A stretch of DNA of 37,095 nucleotides, taken from contig SFCB01000105.1 of assembly GCA_004367505.1 (NCBI GenBank), positions 1-37,095 of the forward strand, written 5' to 3'. A program made the translations under genes and the position numbers. The notes beneath the pieces were generated by a model, which was given only the letters and a program-made list of their open reading frames with translations, did no database searches and had not been told where the DNA came from. Position 1 is the stretch's first letter, and each line of letters begins with the position of its first letter. This DNA is from Chloroflexi bacterium OHK40 (GTDB lineage: Bacteria; Chloroflexota; Chloroflexia; Chloroflexales; Chloroflexaceae). Positions 1 to 20,431 of the stretch are shown here, one piece after another.

Positions 1-708
1 CTGCTCCAGCTCCACCCGGCCCCAGAGGAAACCCGCTACACGCCGCGAGAGCACCTGGGTGGCATTGGCCCGCCGCACACGGATGCCATCGATGGCATCG
101 GACAGCCGCACCAGCGGGGTGCCGGGTAGCAGCCCGCGAGCCCAGAGCAGCTGCAGGGTACAGCTATCCTCGCCCGCCTCCTCGTCGATGCGGGTGATCA
201 CAAACCAGCTCCCGACCGCAACCGTCGTCAGCCGGGTGTCGTCAACTGGTGGAGCACCCTGGCCGGGGATGGGGTTCCCGTGCGGGCAGGTCGTTGCCTC
301 ACCCACCAGGGCCGCGATGCGCAGCTCCATCGCGGGCGAGATGATGGGCTCCAGGATGCTCGCCTCGCGGTGCACTTCATGCCAGGGCACCTGCAGCGTG
401 TCGTAGAGAAAGCGCTCCAGCATGCGGTGACGCCGGATGATCTGCTCGGCAATCGCGGCGCCCGTCGGGGTGAGGTGGATGGCATTGCTGGCGGTACGGG
501 TGATCAGCCCCTTCTGCTCCAGCCGCTGCACCACACTCGTCACCGTCGGTGGGCGGACCTTCATCCAGCGACCGAGCTGCGCCGCGATCACCGGCTCGCG
601 CCGGGCCGCCAGGTAGGCGATGATCTCCAGATAGGAGCGTTCGACGGGCGTCGGCGCTGCGCTCGTAGTCGGGGCCTGAAGGGGTGGGAGGGTGCTACCG
701 TCTTGCAT
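1..708 (-). CDS. DtxR/IdeR-type metal-dependent repressor (C-terminus cut by window edge)
   Basis: Predicted cytoplasmic metal-responsive DNA-binding regulator; 236 codons are visible with no stop before base 1. Seen: a winged helix (about residues 22-82) with recognition segment RPPTVTSVVQRLEQKGLI; a dimerisation and metal-binding domain (about 85-155) with RRHRMLE, EVHREASILEP and the family signature CPHGNPIPG; then an SH3/FeoA-like C-terminal part. The ATG at 708 has AAGGA at 718-722. Compared with DtxR, ancillary-site residues H94, E98 and H113 are kept, but the primary-site Met, Cys and His positions appear to be S25, S117 and P121. Its own promoter carries the putative iron box at 855-868, so autoregulation is likely. 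Family assignment is firm; the sensed metal (Fe or Mn) is inferred from the neighbourhood. Confidence 0.88.
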   Translation of the reverse strand, partial: MQDGSTLPPLQAPTTSAAPTPVERSYLEIIAYLAARREPVIAAQLGRWMKVRPPTVTSVVQRLEQKGLITRTASNAIHLTPTGAAIAEQIIRRHRMLERFLYDTLQVPWHEVHREASILEPIISPAMELRIAALVGEATTCPHGNPIPGQGAPPVDDTRLTTVAVGSWFVITRIDEEAGEDSCTLQLLWARGLLPGTPLVRLSDAIDGIRVRRANATQVLSRRVAGFLWGRVELEQ

Positions 709-854: not shown

Positions 855-885
855 TTAGGGTATCCTAATATCGCGAGTTTGTCAA
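855..885 (-). promoter_or_regulatory. Promoter with DtxR/IdeR-like iron box (module A)
   Basis: Read on the minus strand, TTGACA (880-885) is followed by the dyad TTAGGATACCCTAA (868-855), which covers the expected -10. The outer arms TTAGG and CCTAA are perfect inverted repeats, as in known IdeR/DtxR operators. The dyad starts 18 bases into the promoter counted from the first T of the -35, the same geometry as at 13315, 14442 and (shifted by one) 20368. It drives the DtxR-like gene with a leader of about 145 nt. Binding by that protein is inferred. Confidence 0.7.
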
Positions 886-10292: not shown

Positions 10293-11351
10293 CTACGCCT
10301 GGGAACGAAGGATGAGGGCAAGGAAGAAGGGTCCGCCGGCGAAGGCGGTGATCAGGCCCACCGGGATTTCAGCGGGGGCCGCAAGCGTACGTGCCAGCAG
10401 GTCGGCGATCAGCAGCAGGCTCGCGCCGCCAAGGGCGCTTGCCGGTAGCAAACGGCGATGGTCGGGTCCGGCTACAAGGCGAACCATGTGCGGCACGATC
10501 AGGCCGACGAAGCCGATCGGTCCGGTCAGCGCCACTGCCGCCCCGGTGGCCAGGGCGGCCAGCAGTACGGCGACGCGCTTCACGCGCTCGACATCGACGC
10601 CCAGGTGGCGAGCCTCGCGCTCACCAAGAGCGAGCAGGTTCAGCCGCCGGCCGAGCCAGGGGGCGAGCAGCAGCGCTACGAGCATGAGCGGCGCTGCGGC
10701 AAGCAGGGTCTCCCAGAGCGCGCCACCGAGGCCGCCCATGGTCCAGAAGACGATCGAACGTAGCTCGGCGTCGTCGGCGAGGTAGGTGAGCAGGCCGGTG
10801 CTGGCGCCTGCCAGCGCGTTCAGGGCCAGGCCCACCAGTAAGAGCGTTGCCACGTCGGTGTGCCCGTGGCGCCTGGCGAGCCGGTAGACCAGCACTGTCG
10901 TCACGGTGCCGGCGAGGAACGCCGCCACTGGCAGTGTGAACGGGCCGAGCGGCGCGACGCCGAGCACAAGTATGGCCACGGCGCCGAGCGCGGCGCCGCT
11001 GCTCACCCCGATCAGGCCCGGATCGGCCAGGGGATTACGGAACACGCCCTGGAGCAGCGCCCCACTCACAGCCAGTGCCGCGCCAACCAGCGCCCCAAGC
11101 AGCACTCGTGGCAGTCGGATGCTCCAGAGCACCGCCTCCTGCTGCTGGCTCGGCGTGATGCCAGTCTCCACACCGAGCCTGCCGAGGAGTGTCGCGCCGA
11201 CGATCTCGGGTGGTACCGGCACCGAGCCGACGCCGACACCGAGGAGCAACGCGAGGAGGAGCAATCCGCCGAGGGCCGGGAGCAGTGCGGCCCGACCAGG
11301 ATGCACGTGCCGGGGCGCGCGCTGCGGCTGTGCGGTGGTCGAGGCGCTCAT
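10293..11351 (-). CDS. hmuU: Heme ABC transporter permease (FecCD family)
   Basis: A 352-residue permease with about ten membrane helices and intact family motifs: RLPRVLLGALVGAALAVSGA, then LLQGVFRNPLADPGLIGVSS, and GPIGFVGLIVPHMVRLVAGP towards the C-terminus. In the dimer it forms the channel for heme handed over by HmuT. The start overlaps the hmuT stop (ATGA). Unlike the divergent FecCD protein at 2610-3596 this copy is fully canonical. Heme specificity is inferred from HmuT and HmuV. Confidence 0.92.
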   Translation of the reverse strand: MSASTTAQPQRAPRHVHPGRAALLPALGGLLLLALLLGVGVGSVPVPPEIVGATLLGRLGVETGITPSQQQEAVLWSIRLPRVLLGALVGAALAVSGALLQGVFRNPLADPGLIGVSSGAALGAVAILVLGVAPLGPFTLPVAAFLAGTVTTVLVYRLARRHGHTDVATLLLVGLALNALAGASTGLLTYLADDAELRSIVFWTMGGLGGALWETLLAAAPLMLVALLLAPWLGRRLNLLALGEREARHLGVDVERVKRVAVLLAALATGAAVALTGPIGFVGLIVPHMVRLVAGPDHRRLLPASALGGASLLLIADLLARTLAAPAEIPVGLITAFAGGPFFLALILRSQA

Positions 11352-12418
11352 GGCGTGTTCCCCCGGGCCGTAGCCTGCGCGAAGGCCGCCACAAGGTCGG
11401 AAAGGGCCTGGCCGGTGCGTGGCCCCATCCCGAGCAGGTAGAGATCGTCGAGCGCAACCACGCGCCGGGCCTGTCCCGCAGGCGTGTCGGCGAGGCCAGG
11501 GATCTTCAGCAGGCCATCAACGCCACCCACCGACTCGAGGCCTTTCTCCAGCACCAGGATCACCTCGGGCTGGGCCGCGATCACACTCTCTGGGCTCAGC
11601 GGCTTGAAGTCGGCGATCCCGGCTTCAGCGGCGGCGTTCACCCCGCCGGCGGCGGTAATCATCACATCGGCGGGGGTGTTGCTGCCAGCCACCTGTTGCA
11701 CATCCGTGCCGCGCAGGTAGAGGAACACAACCCGTGGGTGGGCGTTCGTTCCGCTTGCCTGCGTGAGGGCCCGGTCGATCTCGGTTTCGACGCGGGCCGC
11801 CAGCTGCTCGCCCCGCGCCGGCACGCCCAGCGCCTGAGCGACGAAGCGGATCTTCCGGGCCGGCGCATCGAGTGTCGGCGGATCAGCGGCGAGCGCTACA
11901 GGTACACCGGCACTGCGAACCTGCTCCAGTGCCTCGGGCGGGCCGGCGGTCTCATCACCGATCACCAGGGTCGGCGTAAGCGAGAGGATACCCTCGGCGT
12001 TGAGACGGCGCTGGTAGCCAATGTTGGGCAACGCGCGAGTCCGCTCCGGCGGGTAGGTTGCGCTGCTATCTACGCCCACCACCTGCTCGCCCATCCCGAG
12101 CGCAAAGATAATCTCGGTGATGTCGCCCGAGAGGCTCACGATACGCTCCGTGGAGGTGACTGTCACCACGTTGCCGGCGTAGTCTGTCACTATCGCCGGG
12201 AGCTGTGGAGACGCCACGGCGGATGCGCTGGTCGGCGCGGCAACGGCGGAAACGGGCGCAATGGTTGCGCGGGGGGCGGCGCTCGGCGTCGGGGAGCCCG
12301 CAGACGGCGTCGTCGTGCAGGCGCCACAGAGCAGCGCCGCGCACCCCAGGCTGAACAGCTGCCGCCAGCGGGCGCTGGCAGCCCGTGGATGCGGCAGCTT
12401 ATGGTGCCACAGCGGCAT
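11348..12418 (-). CDS. hmuT: Heme ABC transporter substrate-binding lipoprotein
   Basis: A 356-residue class III (BtuF-like) binding protein. A hydrophobic signal ends in a lipobox-like LLCGAC (C34), followed by a Thr/Ser/Ala/Pro linker to about 73. The mature domain begins IVTDYAGNVVTV. Typical HmuT features are RIVSLSGDITEIIFALGMGEQVVGVD, the LNAEGILSLTPTLVIGDE strand and the C-terminal DLYLLGMGPRTGQAL. It binds heme outside the membrane and passes it to HmuU. The start overlaps the hmuV 3' end by 20 bases. Cobalamin or siderophore specificity is less likely because HmuV next door has the heme-type signature. Confidence 0.88.
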   Translation of the reverse strand: MPLWHHKLPHPRAASARWRQLFSLGCAALLCGACTTTPSAGSPTPSAAPRATIAPVSAVAAPTSASAVASPQLPAIVTDYAGNVVTVTSTERIVSLSGDITEIIFALGMGEQVVGVDSSATYPPERTRALPNIGYQRRLNAEGILSLTPTLVIGDETAGPPEALEQVRSAGVPVALAADPPTLDAPARKIRFVAQALGVPARGEQLAARVETEIDRALTQASGTNAHPRVVFLYLRGTDVQQVAGSNTPADVMITAAGGVNAAAEAGIADFKPLSPESVIAAQPEVILVLEKGLESVGGVDGLLKIPGLADTPAGQARRVVALDDLYLLGMGPRTGQALSDLVAAFAQATARGNTP

Positions 12419-13223
12419 GAGTCACCTCACGGAACTTCACAGAGTCGGACGGAAGGGCAAGCACCAGCGGCGCGTCATAGTGGGGGTGGCGCTGCACGCT
12501 CACTGCCACGCCATACACCGCGCTCAGACGCTTGGCATCAAGCACCGCCCACGGCGAGCCAAGGGCAAGCAGGTGCCCCTGGTGCAACAGCGCGATCCGG
12601 TCGGCGTAAAGCGCGGCCAGATTCAGGTCGTGGAGCACAGCGATAACGGCGCCACCTCTGGCTGAGACCGCCTTTGCTATCTGCAAGGCCGCGTGCTGGT
12701 GGCGTAGGTCGAGGGCAGCAGTGGGCTCATCCAGCAGAAGCAGCGGTGCCTGCTGGGCCAGCACACGTGCCAGGCTTGCGCGGGCCTGCTCACCGCCGGA
12801 GAGGGTTGGGAACACCCGCTCGGCGAAATGCAGCATCTCGGTGCGGGCCAGCGCATCACGGGCGATCGCTTCATCGGCGGCGCTCTCCGCGCGACCACGG
12901 AGGTGCGGGTGGCGGCCCATCAAGGCGACCTCTAGCGTCGTGAAGGGAAAGGCGATGCTCACCTGCTGCCGCAGAACCGCCCTGCGCAGCGCCTGCCCAT
13001 GAGCGTCCAGGCTGCCAAGCAGATGCCCGTCGAGGCGCACCATACCGCTCGTTGGAGTGAGGTCACCGGCAAGCAGGCCGAGCAGCGTACTCTTGCCCGC
13101 ACCGTTGGGGCCCACCACAGCCAGAAACTCTCCCGCCTCGACACTGAACGTAACCTCGTGGATCAGGCTGCGGCCAGCCAGCTGATAGCTCAGATCATGC
13201 GCGGCAAGTAGTGGTGTTGGCAT
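12399..13223 (-). CDS. hmuV: Heme ABC transporter ATP-binding protein
   Basis: A 274-residue ATPase when started at ATG 13223; an in-frame TTG at 13241 adds six residues, and neither has a strong ribosome site. Walker A GPNGAGKSTLLGLLAG, the HmuV-type stretch LRRAVLRQQVSIAFPFTTLEVALMGRHPH, signature LSGGEQARASLARVLA, Walker B LLLLDEPTAALD and switch VLHDLNLA are all present. It powers heme import by HmuU. It is the first gene behind the iron-box promoter at 13315-13345, so repression by iron is likely. Confidence 0.9.
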   Translation of the reverse strand: MPTPLLAAHDLSYQLAGRSLIHEVTFSVEAGEFLAVVGPNGAGKSTLLGLLAGDLTPTSGMVRLDGHLLGSLDAHGQALRRAVLRQQVSIAFPFTTLEVALMGRHPHLRGRAESAADEAIARDALARTEMLHFAERVFPTLSGGEQARASLARVLAQQAPLLLLDEPTAALDLRHQHAALQIAKAVSARGGAVIAVLHDLNLAALYADRIALLHQGHLLALGSPWAVLDAKRLSAVYGVAVSVQRHPHYDAPLVLALPSDSVKFREVTHAAVAP

Positions 13224-13314
13224 GGTCCGTGTCACCGGCAACGAAACATCTACCCGGGCCGATGATGGCCCGAGATCGTCTCAGCTAGTTCTATGAACTT
13301 GCTAATCTTTAAAG

Positions 13315-13555: not shown

Positions 13556-13963
13556 ATGTCCCGAACAATTGCGCTGATCGCCCATGACGGCAAGAAGGCC
13601 GACATGGTTGCCTTTGCTACCTACAACCGCGAACAGCTGCGGCACTACCGCCTGATTGCAACCGCGAGCACGGGGAAGCTGCTGATCAGCAAAGTAGGCC
13701 TGGAGGTGACCTGCCTGGCGAGCGGGCCATACGGCGGCGATGCCCAGATCGGTGCCCAGGTGGTTGAGGGGGGCGTCGAGGCAGTGATCTTCCTCGTCGA
13801 CCCGCTGGACAAGCACCCCCACGATCCCGACATCCAGAGCCTGATGCGGCTCTGTAATGTGCACAACGTACCGCTAGCAACCAATGTCGCTACCGCCGAC
13901 TGCATCATTTCCGCTATCGCCATGCGTACGCAGCTGGACCAGACGACGCTCGAACATCGGTAG
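13556..13963 (+). CDS. mgsA: Methylglyoxal synthase
   Basis: A 135-residue cytoplasmic enzyme that converts dihydroxyacetone phosphate to methylglyoxal and phosphate, the glycolytic bypass used when sugar phosphates build up or phosphate is short. The ATG at 13556 has AGGAG nine bases upstream. Family motifs are ALIAHDGKKADMVAFA, the phosphate-binding ATASTGKLL (usually TGTTG), the catalytic-Asp region SGPYGGDAQIGAQV, DPLDKHPHDPDIQSLMRLC with the key His-x-x-Asp, and VPLATNVATAD. Length is close to the family norm. It is divergent from the hmu genes and has no operon partner. Confidence 0.95.
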   Translation: MSRTIALIAHDGKKADMVAFATYNREQLRHYRLIATASTGKLLISKVGLEVTCLASGPYGGDAQIGAQVVEGGVEAVIFLVDPLDKHPHDPDIQSLMRLCNVHNVPLATNVATADCIISAIAMRTQLDQTTLEHR

Positions 13964-14440
13964 CGCCAGAGCCACCCAAACGGGCTCGGTGCAAGCGAGG
14001 GCATGCCTCCGCAAAAGCGGGAGGCGCTGGGTTCCCGCGTGCGCGGGAACGACACTCCTGGCGTATTGGTGTCACCCCCGCGCAGGCGGGGGTCCAGGGC
14101 GGGACGCCTGCGGGCCTGCCTCCGCGTGCGCTGGGTTCCCGCGTGCGCGGAAACGACACCCCCGGCGCATTGGTGTCACCCCCGCGCAGGCGGGGGTCCA
14201 GGGCTCCGACGTGGTGCGCCCGGCGGTCCAGATCGTCACCCCCGCGCAGGCGGGGGGCCAGGGCGGGACGCCTGCGGGCCTGCCTCCGCGTGCGCTGGGT
14301 TCCCGCGTGCGCGGGAACGACACCCCCGGCGCATTGGTGTCACCCCCGCGCAGGCGGGCTTCGCCTCCCAACGCCGCGCGCTTCAGCGCCACGGCATCCG
14401 GGGTGCAGGCACATCCGCTGCGCCGTTTTACAACCATTTT
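13964..14440. repeat. Cluster of alternating palindromic repeats between mgsA and the iron operon
   Basis: No gene is supported. Two units alternate. Unit a, TTCCCGCGTGCGCGGGAA, occurs at 14032, 14136 (one base changed) and 14300. Unit b, TCACCCCCGCGCAGGCGGG, occurs at 14072, 14176, 14236 and 14340. A longer block containing both, from GGCGGGACGCCTGC to the next unit b, is duplicated (about 14097-14190 and 14262-14355). Reading frames through these units give recurrent peptides such as VTPAQAG on one strand and FPRTREP on the other, which are translation artefacts. The family recurs at 1008-1027. Confidence 0.85.
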
Positions 14441-14441
14441 C

Positions 14442-14473
14442 TTGACAAACCATCGATATTAGTATAATCTAAT
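14442..14473 (+). promoter_or_regulatory. Promoter with iron box driving the siderophore/COG4280 operon (module C)
   Basis: TTGACA (14442-14447) is followed by TTAGTATAATCTAA (14459-14472), a TTAG-N6-CTAA dyad containing a consensus TATAAT; TAATCT at 14465 gives the optimal 17-base spacing. Dyad position relative to the -35 is the same as in modules A and B. The leader to the TTG start at 14648 is about 170 nt. A repressor bound here would cover the -10. Confidence 0.75.
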
Positions 14474-14647
14474 CCCGGATATTGCTAGGTAATAACTTCC
14501 GCTGCCACGTCGGCAGGCGCAGCTAACGCCCGTCCAGCGGGTTGTGGCTTTGCCTTGCCTTGCGCTGCTCCAAGCATAACGAGCAGCGGATCGGGCAAGA
14601 ACGAGGACCAGAAACCGGAGAACCGCACAGCGAAAGGACGGCACTCC

Positions 14648-15772
14648 TTGGTAACCCGTACCACCACCCTCACCGACCATACCCTCGATACCCTGGCTCG
14701 CCGCGCGCCCGCCACCGACGATCTGCTGGAACTCGCCGCATGGCTCCACGCTAACGGGCATCGCCATCTCAGCGCCATCGAGCGCGTCGAACTGGCCGAG
14801 CGGCTGATCAGCCGCCGCCGCTTCCTGATCGGCGCGGGGGCGCTACTGCTGGCCGGCTGCGGCGCGCCGGGTGCCAGCGCGCCGACGGCGACCGTGGCGG
14901 CGACACGCACGATCACCGACCACGCCGGGCGGAGCATTACCATTCCGGTTGACCCGCAACGGGTCGTGGCCGGCTACACCACGGACATCGATGTGGCGCT
15001 GGTGCTCGGCCTGCCACTGATCGGGGGGCCGGGTGCCCGCGGCCTCGCGACACAACCGTTTGTGCCCTACCAGCCGCAGGAACAACTCGCCAGCCTCACC
15101 CGCATCACGACCTTTCCTGAGGCGAACCTGGAGCAGATCGCGGCGTTACAGCCGGATCTGATCATCGACAGTGTGGGCGACTACATCGAGGGGCGTTACG
15201 CGCTACTCTCCCAGATCGCGCCAACCTTCGATGTGTCTGGCCCGGCTGGTGACGGGTGGCGCGCCTACCTGCGCGCCGTTGCCGAGCCGCTTGGCCGCGC
15301 GGCGCAGGCCGAGCAGTTCATCGCCGAGTACGAGGCTCGCGCCGCCGACCTGCGCGCCCGCCTCGCCGAGCGCCTGCCCAACGCGACCTTCGCCCTGATC
15401 GGCGCATACGAACCCGGCACCGTCTGGGTCTCCGACGTGCAGATGCATCCAGTCAAGGTACTGGCCGATGACCTCGGCCTGCGCCCGGCAGCAATTATGC
15501 CCGCGACCAGCGCGGATCGTCCGAACCTCTCGCTGGAGCGGCTCGATCTGCTCGACGAAGTGAACCTGCTCTTCCTACGGGTTGAGCCCCTGGAAAGCGG
15601 CGCGGGGCGCGACCGCAGCATCCACGACCCGCTCAAGGCCTCGCCGCTCTGGCAACGCCTACCAGCTGTACAGAATGGCGGCCTTATCGAGTACGACGCC
15701 GAGCTGTTCTACTCCTCGCCGCTCACCGCCATGGCCCTGCTCGATGTCGTCGAGCAGGCGCTGCTGAGCTAA
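14648..15772 (+). CDS. Siderophore-type iron-binding lipoprotein with Tat-like signal
   Basis: A 374-residue class III binding protein of the FecB/FhuD group. The TTG at 14648 is chosen because AAAGGA lies nine bases upstream and no ATG with a ribosome site is in frame. Residues 1-55 form an unusually long cytoplasmic lead, followed by a Tat-like motif SRRRFLIG (55-62) and lipobox LLAGC (C71), suggesting export in a folded state and lipid anchoring. The mature domain begins RTITDHAGRSITIPVDPQRVV, with ANLEQIAALQPDLIID and a C-terminal PLWQRLPAVQNGGLIEYD, all typical. It is first in an operon with a Suc_Fer protein, another binding protein and COG4280. No permease or ATPase gene is adjacent. 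Confidence 0.88.
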   Translation: MVTRTTTLTDHTLDTLARRAPATDDLLELAAWLHANGHRHLSAIERVELAERLISRRRFLIGAGALLLAGCGAPGASAPTATVAATRTITDHAGRSITIPVDPQRVVAGYTTDIDVALVLGLPLIGGPGARGLATQPFVPYQPQEQLASLTRITTFPEANLEQIAALQPDLIIDSVGDYIEGRYALLSQIAPTFDVSGPAGDGWRAYLRAVAEPLGRAAQAEQFIAEYEARAADLRARLAERLPNATFALIGAYEPGTVWVSDVQMHPVKVLADDLGLRPAAIMPATSADRPNLSLERLDLLDEVNLLFLRVEPLESGAGRDRSIHDPLKASPLWQRLPAVQNGGLIEYDAELFYSSPLTAMALLDVVEQALLS

Positions 15773-15787
15773 CCAGATCGGAGATCG

Positions 15788-16816
15788 ATGACGACCACCA
15801 CGGAGTCACGCTTCTGCTCGGTCTGCGCGCGGCAGGCCGGGCTGAGCCCCGCCGGCTACGGCGGCGCGGCCTACGACAGGATCATCGCCGCCGAGCTGCC
15901 GCTGCCCTGGCCGGTGGGCATGTTCGCCGACCCGCAGCGCATGCCGCCCGAGGTGATCGCCGTGATGCAGCACATCCGCGACGAGTACCAGCGTACCCAT
16001 CGTGTGACGATCCGCCCCCTCGCTATCGCCCCCGACCGCGACTCTTCCGTGGCAGGGATGCGCCGGGTGATCGCATGGCACCGCCCTGCCGGGCCATTCG
16101 CGCAGTTCGATCGGACGGAATACCTCGTACCGGAGGATCGGCTCGGCCCGCTCTTCTACGCGCTGGCGCTAGCACCGGAGCGGCTGGACGACTTCGCCAC
16201 CTACGGGCAGGAGCACGGCGAAGTGCGCGATCTGCTGGTCTGCACCCACGGGAGCGTGGACGCTGCCTGCTCGAAGTTCGGCTACCCAACCTACGCGCAG
16301 CTACGCCGCATCGCAGCCGACAGCGGCGGGCGACTGCGGGCCTGGCGCACCACCCACTTCGGTGGCCACGTGTTTGCGCCAACGCTGATCGACCTGCCGC
16401 ACGGCAGCTACTGGGCCTATATCGAACCCGACACAGCCGATTGGCTGGTGAGTCGCAGCGGTGACATTACCCGGCTGTCACTGCACTACCGCGGTTGGGC
16501 CGGCCTGCCCGCGCCGTTCCTGCAGGTGCTTGAGCGCGAGCTCTTTATGCGCTACGGCTGGAAATGGCTCCACTACGCGAAGGCGGGCCGGGTGCTCGCG
16601 CAAGACGAGACCGCCGAGCCGGACGAGCATGGCCATGCCGAGTTGGCCTGGGCCGAGGTGCAGCTCGACTACCGCGCGCCCGATGGCGGAGCCGGGAGCG
16701 TAACGGCCCGCGTCGAGCTGATCAAACGGATCGAGGTGATCCACACCAGTGGCGACGACGAGACCTACGCCTACCCACAGTATGCCGTGGCGTGGATGCG
16801 CGCGGAGCCCCAATGA
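15788..16816 (+). CDS. Suc_Fer-like thioredoxin-fold 2Fe-2S protein
   Basis: A 342-residue protein of the sucrase/ferredoxin-like (Suc_Fer, Apd1-type) family. Cluster ligand candidates are C152 and C161 in VCTHGSVDAAC, and H190 and H194 in HFGGHVFAPTL; Apd1-type proteins hold a 2Fe-2S cluster with two Cys and two His in this arrangement. A further N-terminal FCSVC (C10, C13) is seen. No signal peptide, so cytoplasmic. It starts 15 bases after the siderophore-binding gene with GGAG upstream. A role in reducing imported ferric siderophore is a reasonable inference from context, as proposed for other 2Fe-2S ferric reductases such as FhuF, but is not shown by sequence. Confidence 0.82.
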   Translation: MTTTTESRFCSVCARQAGLSPAGYGGAAYDRIIAAELPLPWPVGMFADPQRMPPEVIAVMQHIRDEYQRTHRVTIRPLAIAPDRDSSVAGMRRVIAWHRPAGPFAQFDRTEYLVPEDRLGPLFYALALAPERLDDFATYGQEHGEVRDLLVCTHGSVDAACSKFGYPTYAQLRRIAADSGGRLRAWRTTHFGGHVFAPTLIDLPHGSYWAYIEPDTADWLVSRSGDITRLSLHYRGWAGLPAPFLQVLERELFMRYGWKWLHYAKAGRVLAQDETAEPDEHGHAELAWAEVQLDYRAPDGGAGSVTARVELIKRIEVIHTSGDDETYAYPQYAVAWMRAEPQ

Positions 16817-16861
16817 ACGGCGCGCTCTTGTTCCGCCTGCCGCACAATTCGAAGAATAGCG

Positions 16862-17827
16862 ATGAATATGCTCCTACGCCGATGCTGGGCCTGTCCGGGG
16901 CTGTTGCTGCTCATCCTACTCGCCGCCTGTGCCGCGCCGTCGCAACCAGCCATGCCGCTGATGGAGGTTGGGACCACCGTTGAGCACCGGCTGATCCGCC
17001 ACATCTTCGGCGAAACACAGGTGCCGCTCGACCCGCAGCGGGTGCTGGCGCTCGGCGAGGAGAGCCTGCTGGCCGATCTGCTCGACGCCGGGGTGCGCCC
17101 GGTGGCCTCCAACGTGAATGTGCCCGAGCACGTTCCGCTGCTCAGCGCCGATGAGCTGAACGGGATCGCGCTGTTCGCTTCGGCGGGCGAGACCTCGCTC
17201 GAAGCGCTGAGCGCCTACCAGCCCGACCTGATCATCGGCACGCGCTTCTTTGTCGAGCAGTTCGGCTACCGGCGGCTCAGCGCGATCGCTCCGACCGTAG
17301 CCCTGGGAGGCCTGACGCCAGCCGCGCAGTATGTCGAGACGCTCACGGTGCTTGGCCGCGCCGAGGCGGCGCAGCGCGAGGTAAACGCGCTCCGCGCCGA
17401 GATCCAGGCTGTGGCCGCGCGGATCGCTGCGGCAGAGCAGCAGGTCTCGGTCGTCACCGTCTACCCCGGCGCGAGCGTAGCGCTGTGGGTCGATGGGCCG
17501 ACTCCCATCCCCCTGCTGCTACGGGAGCTCGGCGTGCAGCTACGCCCCGATCCGGCGACAACCGAGGGGCTCTCCATTCGCAACGGACGAGCCTTCATCA
17601 GCCTGGAGCGATTGCCGCTGCTCGACGGCGCGACGATCATCCTGCTCCAATCGTCGGCGGTGGAAGGCGAGGAGAGCGCACTCGCCGAAGTGCGGGCCAA
17701 CCCGCTCTGGCAGCAACTCCCTGCCGTGCAGGCCGGGCGCGTCATCACCCTCGACCGGCTGGGCTACCCGGGGCTGCGTGGCCAGCGGGCGCTCCTGGCC
17801 GATCTGCGACGTGCGTTGGAGGCGTGA
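16862..17827 (+). CDS. Second siderophore-type iron-binding lipoprotein
   Basis: A 321-residue class III binding protein. The signal is short, with basic RR, a hydrophobic run and lipobox LLAAC (C23). The mature part carries VPLDPQRVLALGEESLLADLL, the strand SLEALSAYQPDLIIGTRFFV and C-terminal PLWQQLPAVQAGRVITLD, matching FecB/FhuD-type proteins. It is clearly distinct in sequence from the binding protein two genes upstream, so the operon has two non-identical receptors. The ribosome site is weak; MNM offers ATG at 16862 or 16868. It ends three bases before the COG4280 membrane protein, implying tight coupling. The ligand is unknown. Confidence 0.86.
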   Translation: MNMLLRRCWACPGLLLLILLAACAAPSQPAMPLMEVGTTVEHRLIRHIFGETQVPLDPQRVLALGEESLLADLLDAGVRPVASNVNVPEHVPLLSADELNGIALFASAGETSLEALSAYQPDLIIGTRFFVEQFGYRRLSAIAPTVALGGLTPAAQYVETLTVLGRAEAAQREVNALRAEIQAVAARIAAAEQQVSVVTVYPGASVALWVDGPTPIPLLLRELGVQLRPDPATTEGLSIRNGRAFISLERLPLLDGATIILLQSSAVEGEESALAEVRANPLWQQLPAVQAGRVITLDRLGYPGLRGQRALLADLRRALEA

Positions 17828-17830
17828 TCA

Positions 17831-18556
17831 ATGAACACGGGTGCCTTTGTCGGCGCGTTTACCGGCTCCTTGATTGAACTGGTCGAGATTCTGGCCGTCG
17901 CTCTGGTGGTGGGCCGGGTGGCCGGCTGGCGCAACGCCTGGATCGGCACGGGCAGCGCCGCTGCGCTGGTGATCGTCGGCGCGCTCATCGTGGGCACCGG
18001 ACTGACGCGCATCCCCGCGCGCTGGCTCGAACTCCTGGCTGGGCTGATTTTGCTTGGCTTCGGCCAGTGGTGGGTGCGCGGCGTGGTGAAATACTACGCC
18101 GGGCGCTTGTCGCCCCACGAGGAAGAGGAGGTGCGCCTGGAGCGAGAGCTTGCCGCTTCGGGCAGGCGTGCGGGCTGGAACTGGGTTGCCATTGCCACCG
18201 CCTTTAAGAGCTCCCTCCTGGAGAGCTTCGAGATCGCGCTGGTGGTGGTCACGCTCGGCGCGGCCAACGCGGCCTGGAATGAGGCGATCGGCGGCGCGCT
18301 GGTGGCGACGATCGGGTTGCTCGTGGTGGCCTTCCTGTTGCGCGCGCCACTCAGCCGCGTGCCCGTCAAGCCGATGAAATTCGTCGCAGCGATGCTGCTG
18401 ATGGGCTTCGGTAGCTATTGGCTGGGCGAGGGTCTGGGCATCCACTGGACCGGTGCGGTCTGGGCCATCCTTTATTTGACAGCGCTATGGGGCGTGGGGA
18501 TGGCCCTGGCCATACGGGTGCTGCGGGTGTCGTCGCAAGGTTCGATGAGATGGTAG
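17831..18556 (+). CDS. COG4280-type membrane protein with duplicated ExxE motif
   Basis: A 241-residue protein with seven or so membrane helices and a central charged loop (about 88-115). It matches what I know of COG4280, an uncharacterised family, including the C-terminal PMKFVAAMLLMGFGSYWLGE. An internal duplication is visible: GSLIELVEILAVAL (12-25) and SSLLESFEIALVVV (127-140), each with Glu-x-x-Glu (E16/E19, E131/E134). The iron permease FTR1 likewise has REGLE-type ExxE motifs in two helices. Its position three bases after an iron-binding lipoprotein suggests it is the membrane component of an iron uptake route; that function is inference. Confidence 0.78.
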   Translation: MNTGAFVGAFTGSLIELVEILAVALVVGRVAGWRNAWIGTGSAAALVIVGALIVGTGLTRIPARWLELLAGLILLGFGQWWVRGVVKYYAGRLSPHEEEEVRLERELAASGRRAGWNWVAIATAFKSSLLESFEIALVVVTLGAANAAWNEAIGGALVATIGLLVVAFLLRAPLSRVPVKPMKFVAAMLLMGFGSYWLGEGLGIHWTGAVWAILYLTALWGVGMALAIRVLRVSSQGSMRW

Positions 18557-19255: not shown

Positions 19256-20245
19256 TCACGCACCAAGCGCCATCACGATTGTATCGATGTTGTGGCGCAT
19301 CATCTTAAGATAGGTGTCGGCATCACCGCCCGGTTCGCCCAGCGCGTCGGCGTACAGCTCGCCGCCGATCCGCACCTCCTGACCGCCCTCCCGGGCGGCC
19401 GCGATGACCGCCTCGATCGTACGCGGTGAGATTGTGCTCTCGATAAAGATCGCCGGTACCTGACGTTCGAGCACAAGATCAGCCAGCACCTGGATATCGG
19501 CGACGCTGGCCTCGCTCTCAGTACTGATGCCCTGCACGGCCTCGACCTGCAGACCGTAGGCACGCCCATAGTAGTTGAAAGCGTCGTGGGCGGTAATCAG
19601 CACGCGCCGCTCCTGCGGAATGCGCTGCACCTGCTCCAGCGTGTACTCGTGCAACGTCTCGATCTCGGTAGCATAGCGAGCCGCGTTTGCCTCATACACA
19701 CTGGCATGAGCCGGGTCCATCTCCATCAACGTGTCGCGAATGGTATAGATTACCCGCGTCCAAAGACGCATGTCATTCCAGATGTGTGGGTCGTAAGGCA
19801 ACCCGGCCTCAGGTTCCCAGTTCAGCAGGGTCAGGGGATCGAGCGTATCGCCCACGGCGACAACCTTCACTGTGCCGCTTGCACCGATCTGCTCTAGCAC
19901 GCGGTCCATCTGGGCTTCGAGGCGCAGGCCGTTGTAGAAAATCAGATCGGCGTTCTGGAAGGTCTGAAGGTCGCTCTCGGTGGCGACATAGGTATGCGGG
20001 TCGACCCCGGGGCCGAGCAGGTTGGTGAGTTGCACCTTGTCCTGGGCGATAACGGTGACCGCATCGGCAATCTGGCCGGTGGTAGCGACGACATTGAGTG
20101 GCTCGTCAAGCGGGGCGGCAGCGACCTGTGGAGTGGCGTTAGCGGCGGCGGGCGCCTGGGTGGGCGCGGCAGCAGGTGTCTGCTGGCCGCAGGCGACGAG
20201 CAACAGGGCGGCGCAAAGCAAAGCAGCGAGCGTTTGTAGGCGCAT
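19256..20245 (-). CDS. Cluster A-I metal (Mn/Fe-type) binding lipoprotein, orphan
   Basis: A 329-residue binding protein of the TroA/PsaA/ZnuA type. ATG 20245 lies eight bases after AGGAGG; GTG at 20248 is an alternative. Lipobox LLVAC gives C19, then an Ala/Pro linker. The four metal ligands are visible: H84 (GVDPHTY), H154 (YDPHIWN), E243 (GISTESEAS) and D310 (DADTY). His-His-Glu-Asp is the set typical of Mn/Fe receptors, whereas Zn receptors usually have a third His and often a His-rich loop, absent here. No cognate ATPase or permease is nearby. Module D lies about 140 bases upstream. Confidence 0.88.
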   Translation of the reverse strand: MRLQTLAALLCAALLLVACGQQTPAAAPTQAPAAANATPQVAAAPLDEPLNVVATTGQIADAVTVIAQDKVQLTNLLGPGVDPHTYVATESDLQTFQNADLIFYNGLRLEAQMDRVLEQIGASGTVKVVAVGDTLDPLTLLNWEPEAGLPYDPHIWNDMRLWTRVIYTIRDTLMEMDPAHASVYEANAARYATEIETLHEYTLEQVQRIPQERRVLITAHDAFNYYGRAYGLQVEAVQGISTESEASVADIQVLADLVLERQVPAIFIESTISPRTIEAVIAAAREGGQEVRIGGELYADALGEPGGDADTYLKMMRHNIDTIVMALGA

Positions 20246-20367
20246 CACATGTTCCTCCTCTCTCCGTGATCAGCCGGCTATCCGTTGGGAAGGATCGTAG
20301 CGCGTTCGGGGGCGTCAGCACCGGCAGGCGCTGCGTCCCGGCCAGAGTGTGGAACGTCTCCTGATGC

Positions 20368-20431
20368 TTGACAAAATCGTATTTTTGGATAACCTAAAAC
20401 ATAGATTAGCATTTACTCAAAAAGCTGTCAA
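20368..20431. promoter_or_regulatory. Divergent promoter pair sharing an iron box (module D)
   Basis: Plus strand: TTGACA (20368-20373) then the imperfect dyad TTTGGATAACCTAA (20384-20397), arms CCTAA and TTTGG, at nearly the same offset as in modules A-C. Minus strand: TTGACA (20431-20426), 17-base spacer, TAATCT (20408-20403), with the same dyad just downstream over the start region. One bound repressor could silence both the Mn/Fe-type binding protein (-) and whatever the plus promoter once served, now an ABC remnant and MFS gene. Confidence 0.65.

Follow-up and report, generated by a model that had tools for sequence, protein, structure and literature searches.

Two siderophore-type binding lipoproteins, a Suc_Fer protein, and an FTR1-homologous OFeT_1/COG4280 permease encoded in one candidate iron-regulated operon of Chloroflexi bacterium OHK40

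We analyzed a 37,095-nucleotide stretch of Chloroflexi bacterium OHK40 (the window, which is contig C137 of a 6.93-Mb genome whose contigs C245, C84, C25, and C108 are also cited below) and, within it, the operon at 14442-18556. Four same-strand open reading frames (ORFs) were confirmed at 14555/14648-18556, encoding two class III siderophore-type substrate-binding proteins (SBP1 and SBP2), a Suc_Fer protein, and a COG4280 membrane protein (Table 1); their Pfam families and intergenic gaps of 15, 45, and 3 bp bear out the tight four-gene arrangement proposed in a preliminary description made from the DNA letters. SBP1 likely starts at TTG 14648, which is preceded by AAAGGA (the ORF is open from 14555), and its N terminus, RRRFLIGAGALLLAGC, reads as a twin-arginine (Tat)-like signal with a lipobox; SBP2 carries the lipobox LLAAC. 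These predicted signals and lipoboxes are as expected for membrane-anchored receptors. A Pfam survey of the four genes found no FecCD permease and no ATPase gene, and neither EfeO nor EfeB is among them, so that the operon is an unusual combination of known iron-uptake parts without an ATP-driven pump of its own. We regard it as probable that the four genes serve iron acquisition by two routes together and that a DtxR-family regulator keeps them repressed under iron-replete conditions; the link of the operon to iron and the FTR1 homology of its membrane protein are firm.

The membrane protein scores 56.9 bits against Pfam OFeT_1 (PF16955; curated cut-off, 26.9). Both ExxE helices, GSLIELVEILAVAL and SSLLESFEIALVVV, are present, with E16/E19 encoded at 17876-17887 and E131/E134 at 18221-18232. 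When 64 homologues drawn from Chloroflexota, Pseudomonadota, Actinomycetota, Bacillota, Acidobacteriota, and other groups (27-37% identity except for one close relative) were aligned, just 16 columns were invariant, and these four residues are among them. The two halves of the protein form an internal repeat in which ExxE aligns on ExxE (hhalign 97%, E 4e-11), and its AlphaFold2 model (predicted local distance difference test score, 89) has seven long helices, of which numbers 1 and 4 carry ExxE. Global hhalign comparison with a profile built from the FTR1 domains of relatives (13 FTR1 rows) gave 94.6% (E 1.5e-8, 238 columns) and placed the two ExxE pairs over the two REGxE motifs; local alignment gave 87%, and control alignments, one with the FTR1 profile reversed and one with a profile of FecCD, scored about 0-1%. 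The Arg of REGLE, invariant in the 13 FTR1 rows, is replaced by Ile15 and Leu130 in the operon protein, which Pfam FTR1 (PF03239) did not match at E 0.1. Because the profile aligns, yet the REGLE Arg is missing and PF03239 gives no match, the COG4280 protein is, by profile and motif comparison, an FTR1 homologue in the OFeT_1 family and not FTR1 proper. The preliminary description had anticipated both the duplicated ExxE helices and the resemblance to FTR1, but it had also taken COG4280 to lack an assigned role; because Pfam already labels OFeT_1 "ferrous iron uptake permease", the FTR1 idea is correct, yet the assignment is not new.

Structural searches were less informative. Sequence searches for solved-structure relatives of FTR1 or OFeT found none; in a fold search of the PDB with the OFeT model, the best Foldseek match was VIT1 (E 0.25, not significant), and VIA-align Z values of the model were <8, a range normal for helical bundles. 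The protein also matches GDT1 (0.0055) and CadD (0.005) weakly. The family name OFeT has been applied to Ftr1p and EfeU (PMC9174327), and a literature search found no paper reporting experimental work on OFeT_1/COG4280. Viral contigs yielded no relatives.

Class III SBPs dock on FecCD permeases via two glutamates, for which there is mutational evidence in FecB, FhuD2, and FeuA (PMC3741162). In an alignment that includes E. coli BtuF, the BtuF docking residues (E72/E202, alignment numbering; Glu74 and Glu202 in PMC3741162) are invariant in 12/12 SBPs, SBP1 and SBP2 included. Since these glutamates are intact in both operon receptors, an ATP-binding cassette (ABC) permease is favored as their partner. 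The Suc_Fer protein contains C152-X8-C161 and H190-X3-H194, the CX8CXnHX3H motif of Aim32 and Apd1, a protein type whose function is poorly understood (PMC8482512), and by this ligand motif it is a predicted [2Fe-2S] protein; roughly half of its Chloroflexota relatives have Asp in place of the second His. In several other Chloroflexota genomes, Suc_Fer lies inside complete SBP-FecCD-ATPase operons (L177, L189, L191, and L192).

To place the operon within a regulon, we rely on the operator in its promoter, which the preliminary description had read as an iron box. A pattern search across the 6.93 Mb of genome contigs found TTAGTAnnnnCTAA at 5 places (7 strand-hits, vs. 0.18 expected and 1 for the reversed control pattern), so chance does not account for the site. 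All five places are upstream of iron/siderophore uptake genes, namely HmuTUV, the studied operon, a FecCD-SBP gene (C84), a tandem Peripla_BP_2 protein (C25), and FbpA-FbpB (C108). The layout TTGACAAAC-N10-TTAGTAnnnnCTAA recurs upstream of other iron operons, and two relatives have the promoter-operator module upstream of an SBP-FecCD pair and of a set of FTR1 genes headed by an EfeO-FbpA fusion; in front of OFeT the module has one mismatch. The site at 14459 is shorter than a classical DtxR box of 19 bp, in which 11 bases separate TTAG from CTAA, and that reading was rejected. The window begins inside a gene for a DtxR/IdeR/MntR-family metal-dependent repressor, which scores below the cut-offs of the NCBIfam MntR/DtxR models. 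The iron genes and, with one mismatch, this repressor gene thus have a palindromic operator in common, as in a DtxR-family regulon. We infer that the DtxR-family protein is the repressor acting on the TTAGTAnnnnCTAA sites, and its own gene would be autoregulated.

Table 1. Genes and regulatory sites of the operon and the surrounding iron genes in the window
Feature	Position	Strand	Evidence or remark
SBP1, class III siderophore-type binding lipoprotein	14648..15772	+	PF01497 (Peripla_BP_2) 1.7e-22
Suc_Fer (Apd1/Aim32-type thioredoxin-like ferredoxin)	15788..16816	+	PF06999 8e-21
SBP2, second class III siderophore-type binding lipoprotein	16862..17827	+	PF01497 1.6e-16
OFeT_1/COG4280 permease, FTR1 homologue	17831..18556	+	PF16955 3e-15
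Operon promoter	TTGACA 14442-14447; operator TTAGTATAATCTAA 14459-14472, over -10 region	+	Sequence
HmuTUV promoter operator, perfect palindrome TTAGTACATACTAA	13315..13328	-	Layout TTGACAAAC-N10-TTAGTACATACTAA
HmuV-type ABC ATPase	12399..13241	-	NF010068 heme ABC ATPase, 302 bits, cut-off 261
HmuT-type class III SBP	11348..12418	-	PF01497 1.9e-35
HmuU-type FecCD permease	10293..11351	-	PF01032 5e-100
DtxR/IdeR/MntR-family metal-dependent repressor	1..708, runs off window into C245	-	PF02742 2.9e-25, PF01325 3.8e-6
Operator TTAGGATACCCTAA behind TTGACAAAC, one mismatch, upstream of repressor gene	855..868	-	
Operator-like site, one mismatch, behind TTGACA, upstream of ZnuA-like SBP (19256-20248)	20406..20419	-	

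The operon sits in a larger iron island. The earlier statement that FecCD and ATPase are missing holds for the four genes; divergent from them, however, 1.1 kb away and behind the same promoter site, lies a heme/siderophore-type SBP-FecCD-ATPase set (10293-13241). At the left edge of the window, bases 1-99, inside the DtxR-family gene, match one end of contig C245 (L178 12530-12628) without a difference. Because the contig ends overlap exactly over these 99 bp, the C245 genes, which encode a FecB-type SBP, a nitroreductase/DUF2470 protein, EfeO (imelysin), and FTR1, most likely continue the island. Since the genome has this EfeO-FTR1 pair on C245 as well, we rejected the idea that OFeT simply replaces FTR1 in it.

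The C25 tandem protein is a single ORF with two Peripla_BP_2 domains (L214:1422-3404). In the C84 gene (L206:98-1897), some 70 residues of a FecCD start run on in frame into an SBP, apparently through deletion or misassembly. A gene of genome G403 (L179:2102-4303) fuses an EfeO/imelysin-like region, recognized by eye and without a Pfam M75 match, to an FbpA-type SBP_bac_6 domain, and it has two iron operators before it and two FTR1 genes after it. GC-rich repeats, GTTCCCGCGTGCGCGGGAACGACAC / TCACCCCCGCGCAGGCGGGGGTCC, are dense at 13960-14400, between methylglyoxal synthase and the operon, and a similar stretch lies near 865-1080.

About one in four of the sampled Chloroflexota genomes encodes an OFeT_1/COG4280 protein, and the family is also present in many other phyla. 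Two genomes of the same family carry OFeT at 81-86% identity to the window protein, with which they form a clade (100/100 support), and all three clade members have Peripla_BP_2 genes close by, in differing gene order. A profile built from the window's SBPs detected a Peripla_BP_2 gene at 0/88 wider OFeT loci, some of which overlap and many of which have short flanks, and divergent SBPs could be missed. The linkage of COG4280 to FecB-type receptors that the preliminary description raised is thus found in the three-genome clade and not at the wider loci. FbpABC-type iron transporters, recognized by their permease, are near OFeT at 7/86 wider loci. A further same-family genome, G359 (L176), lacks OFeT and carries the array SBP1-SucFer-SBP-SBP2-EfeO-FTR1, ordered as in the studied operon.

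Two other associations of OFeT_1 recur. A ChrB_N-domain protein (PF20229) is encoded within three genes of it, mostly adjacent, at 17/86 loci (e.g., L117:9102-9722) in Chloroflexota, Bacillota, Actinomycetota, and Pseudomonadota, a pairing that an iron role alone does not explain. An RpiR-family (HTH_6 + SIS) regulator is near OFeT_1 at 15/86 loci, mostly adjacent and mostly in Pseudomonadota (e.g., L076:12545-13444).

Based on these data, we propose that the DtxR-family regulator would repress the four-gene operon when iron is plentiful, and that derepression would serve two routes. In one, SBP1 and SBP2, anchored in the membrane, would bind ferric chelates, either siderophores or heme-like compounds, and pass them on to an ABC permease of the FecCD type that is co-regulated but encoded outside the operon, either HmuUV next door or another FecCD set of this genome; the cytosolic Suc_Fer [2Fe-2S] protein, cast by its context as a reductase of imported ferric chelates, would then reduce the complex, and iron would be released. 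In the other, OFeT_1 would act as an ATP-independent, FTR1-homologous permease and let unchelated iron pass between its two ExxE motifs, which would line the path. Repression by iron, the chelates bound, the direction and ion of OFeT, and the permease serving the SBPs are the parts of this scheme that we infer. Several points weigh against it. FecCD is absent from the operon and from the G359 array with FTR1, so that service in trans has to be assumed, and HmuTUV has an SBP of its own. The docking glutamates are also present in an SBP beside FTR1, and ancestry alone may preserve them. Across the wider OFeT family, linkage to ChrB-like or RpiR genes is at least as frequent as linkage to iron genes, and iron handling by the operon proteins is read from sequence and context.

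The preliminary description had the receptors delivering their cargo to the COG4280 protein itself. In such a scheme SBP1 and SBP2 would pass ferric iron or its chelate directly to OFeT, as EfeO does to EfeU, without an ATPase, and Suc_Fer would reduce it inside. B. subtilis EfeO and EfeU, a minimal ferric uptake complex, provide a precedent (PMC9174327), and we keep this hand-over in view, as unlikely, because FecB-type SBPs repeatedly accompany FTR1 or OFeT in operons without FecCD: Peripla_BP_2 genes are near OFeT in 3/3 clade members despite differing orders, FTR1 takes OFeT's end of the G359 array, and on C245 (L178) a FecB-type SBP precedes the EfeO-FTR1 pair on the same strand, with no FecCD and with the repressor gene abutting. 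However, both FecCD-docking glutamates are kept in SBP1 and SBP2, a co-regulated FecCD/ATPase pair lies next door, Suc_Fer occurs in FecCD operons elsewhere, no recognizable SBP accompanies OFeT at the 88 wider loci, the known substrate of FTR1-type permeases is free iron rather than chelates, and the assembled G359 SBP2 gene is divided between two frames; the delivery claim is thus unsupported. Its extension to an ATPase-free, binding-protein-dependent ferric route in Chloroflexota, in which class III SBPs would feed FTR1/OFeT permeases, with OFeT and EfeO-FTR1 as alternatives and an Apd1-type ferredoxin reducing inside, is about as unlikely.

Two further alternatives uncouple OFeT from the receptors. 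The four genes may be one transcription unit by position only, clustered in an island rich in metal genes (FecCD, FbpBC-like, HmuTUV, and ZnuA-like), with OFeT functionally independent of the other three; the varying SBP/OFeT order in the clade would fit, but the gaps of a few to tens of base pairs on one strand behind a single operator, together with the SBP-SucFer-SBP2 order kept in G359, make this improbable. Least probable, in our judgment, is that OFeT_1 does not import iron and resembles carriers of the LysE superfamily, either moving a different divalent metal or working as an exporter; its low-iron expression would correct mismetallation, and it would share only the regulon. The weak GDT1 and CadD matches, the ChrB_N and RpiR neighbors, the operator-like site before the ZnuA-like SBP, and a family name that covers iron-lead point in this direction; on the other hand, the FTR1 profile match keeps both motifs in register, the exact operator sites keep iron-only company, and FbpABC neighbors recur at wider loci. 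We retain the two-route iron-acquisition operon as the probable explanation.

The locus ties one OFeT_1/COG4280 clade to an iron regulon via a common operator and a repressor gene, and it offers a clear test case for a possible partnership between siderophore-type binding proteins and permeases of the FTR1 type. Its parts are known from iron uptake and their combination is new and testable, although the FTR1 link is partly already annotated. For Suc_Fer/Apd1-type proteins, it adds a bacterial setting that recurs, namely operons for siderophore uptake.

Compared with known systems, the operon resembles FecBCDE, FhuBCD, and HmuTUV ABC importers in its class III SBPs with both docking glutamates and in its Suc_Fer, which is found in such operons of other Chloroflexota; unlike them, it contains neither a FecCD permease nor an ATPase. 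Like the bis-histidinyl [2Fe-2S] proteins Apd1 and Aim32, its Suc_Fer has CX8C...HX3H, but it is bacterial and encoded in an iron operon. With FTR1/EfeU permeases (EfeUOB, FtrABCD, and P19-cFtr1), OFeT shares seven long model helices, ExxE in long helices 1 and 4, the internal repeat, and profile homology, whereas it lacks the Arg before ExxE and a PF03239 match, and its partners here are siderophore-type SBPs and Suc_Fer rather than EfeO/EfeB or a multicopper oxidase. Relative to other PF16955 members, the protein likewise exceeds the gathering cut-off and has the four invariant glutamates, yet it lies on a long, separate three-genome branch (100/100 support, branch 3.7), and among the members examined only this clade has siderophore-type SBPs alongside.

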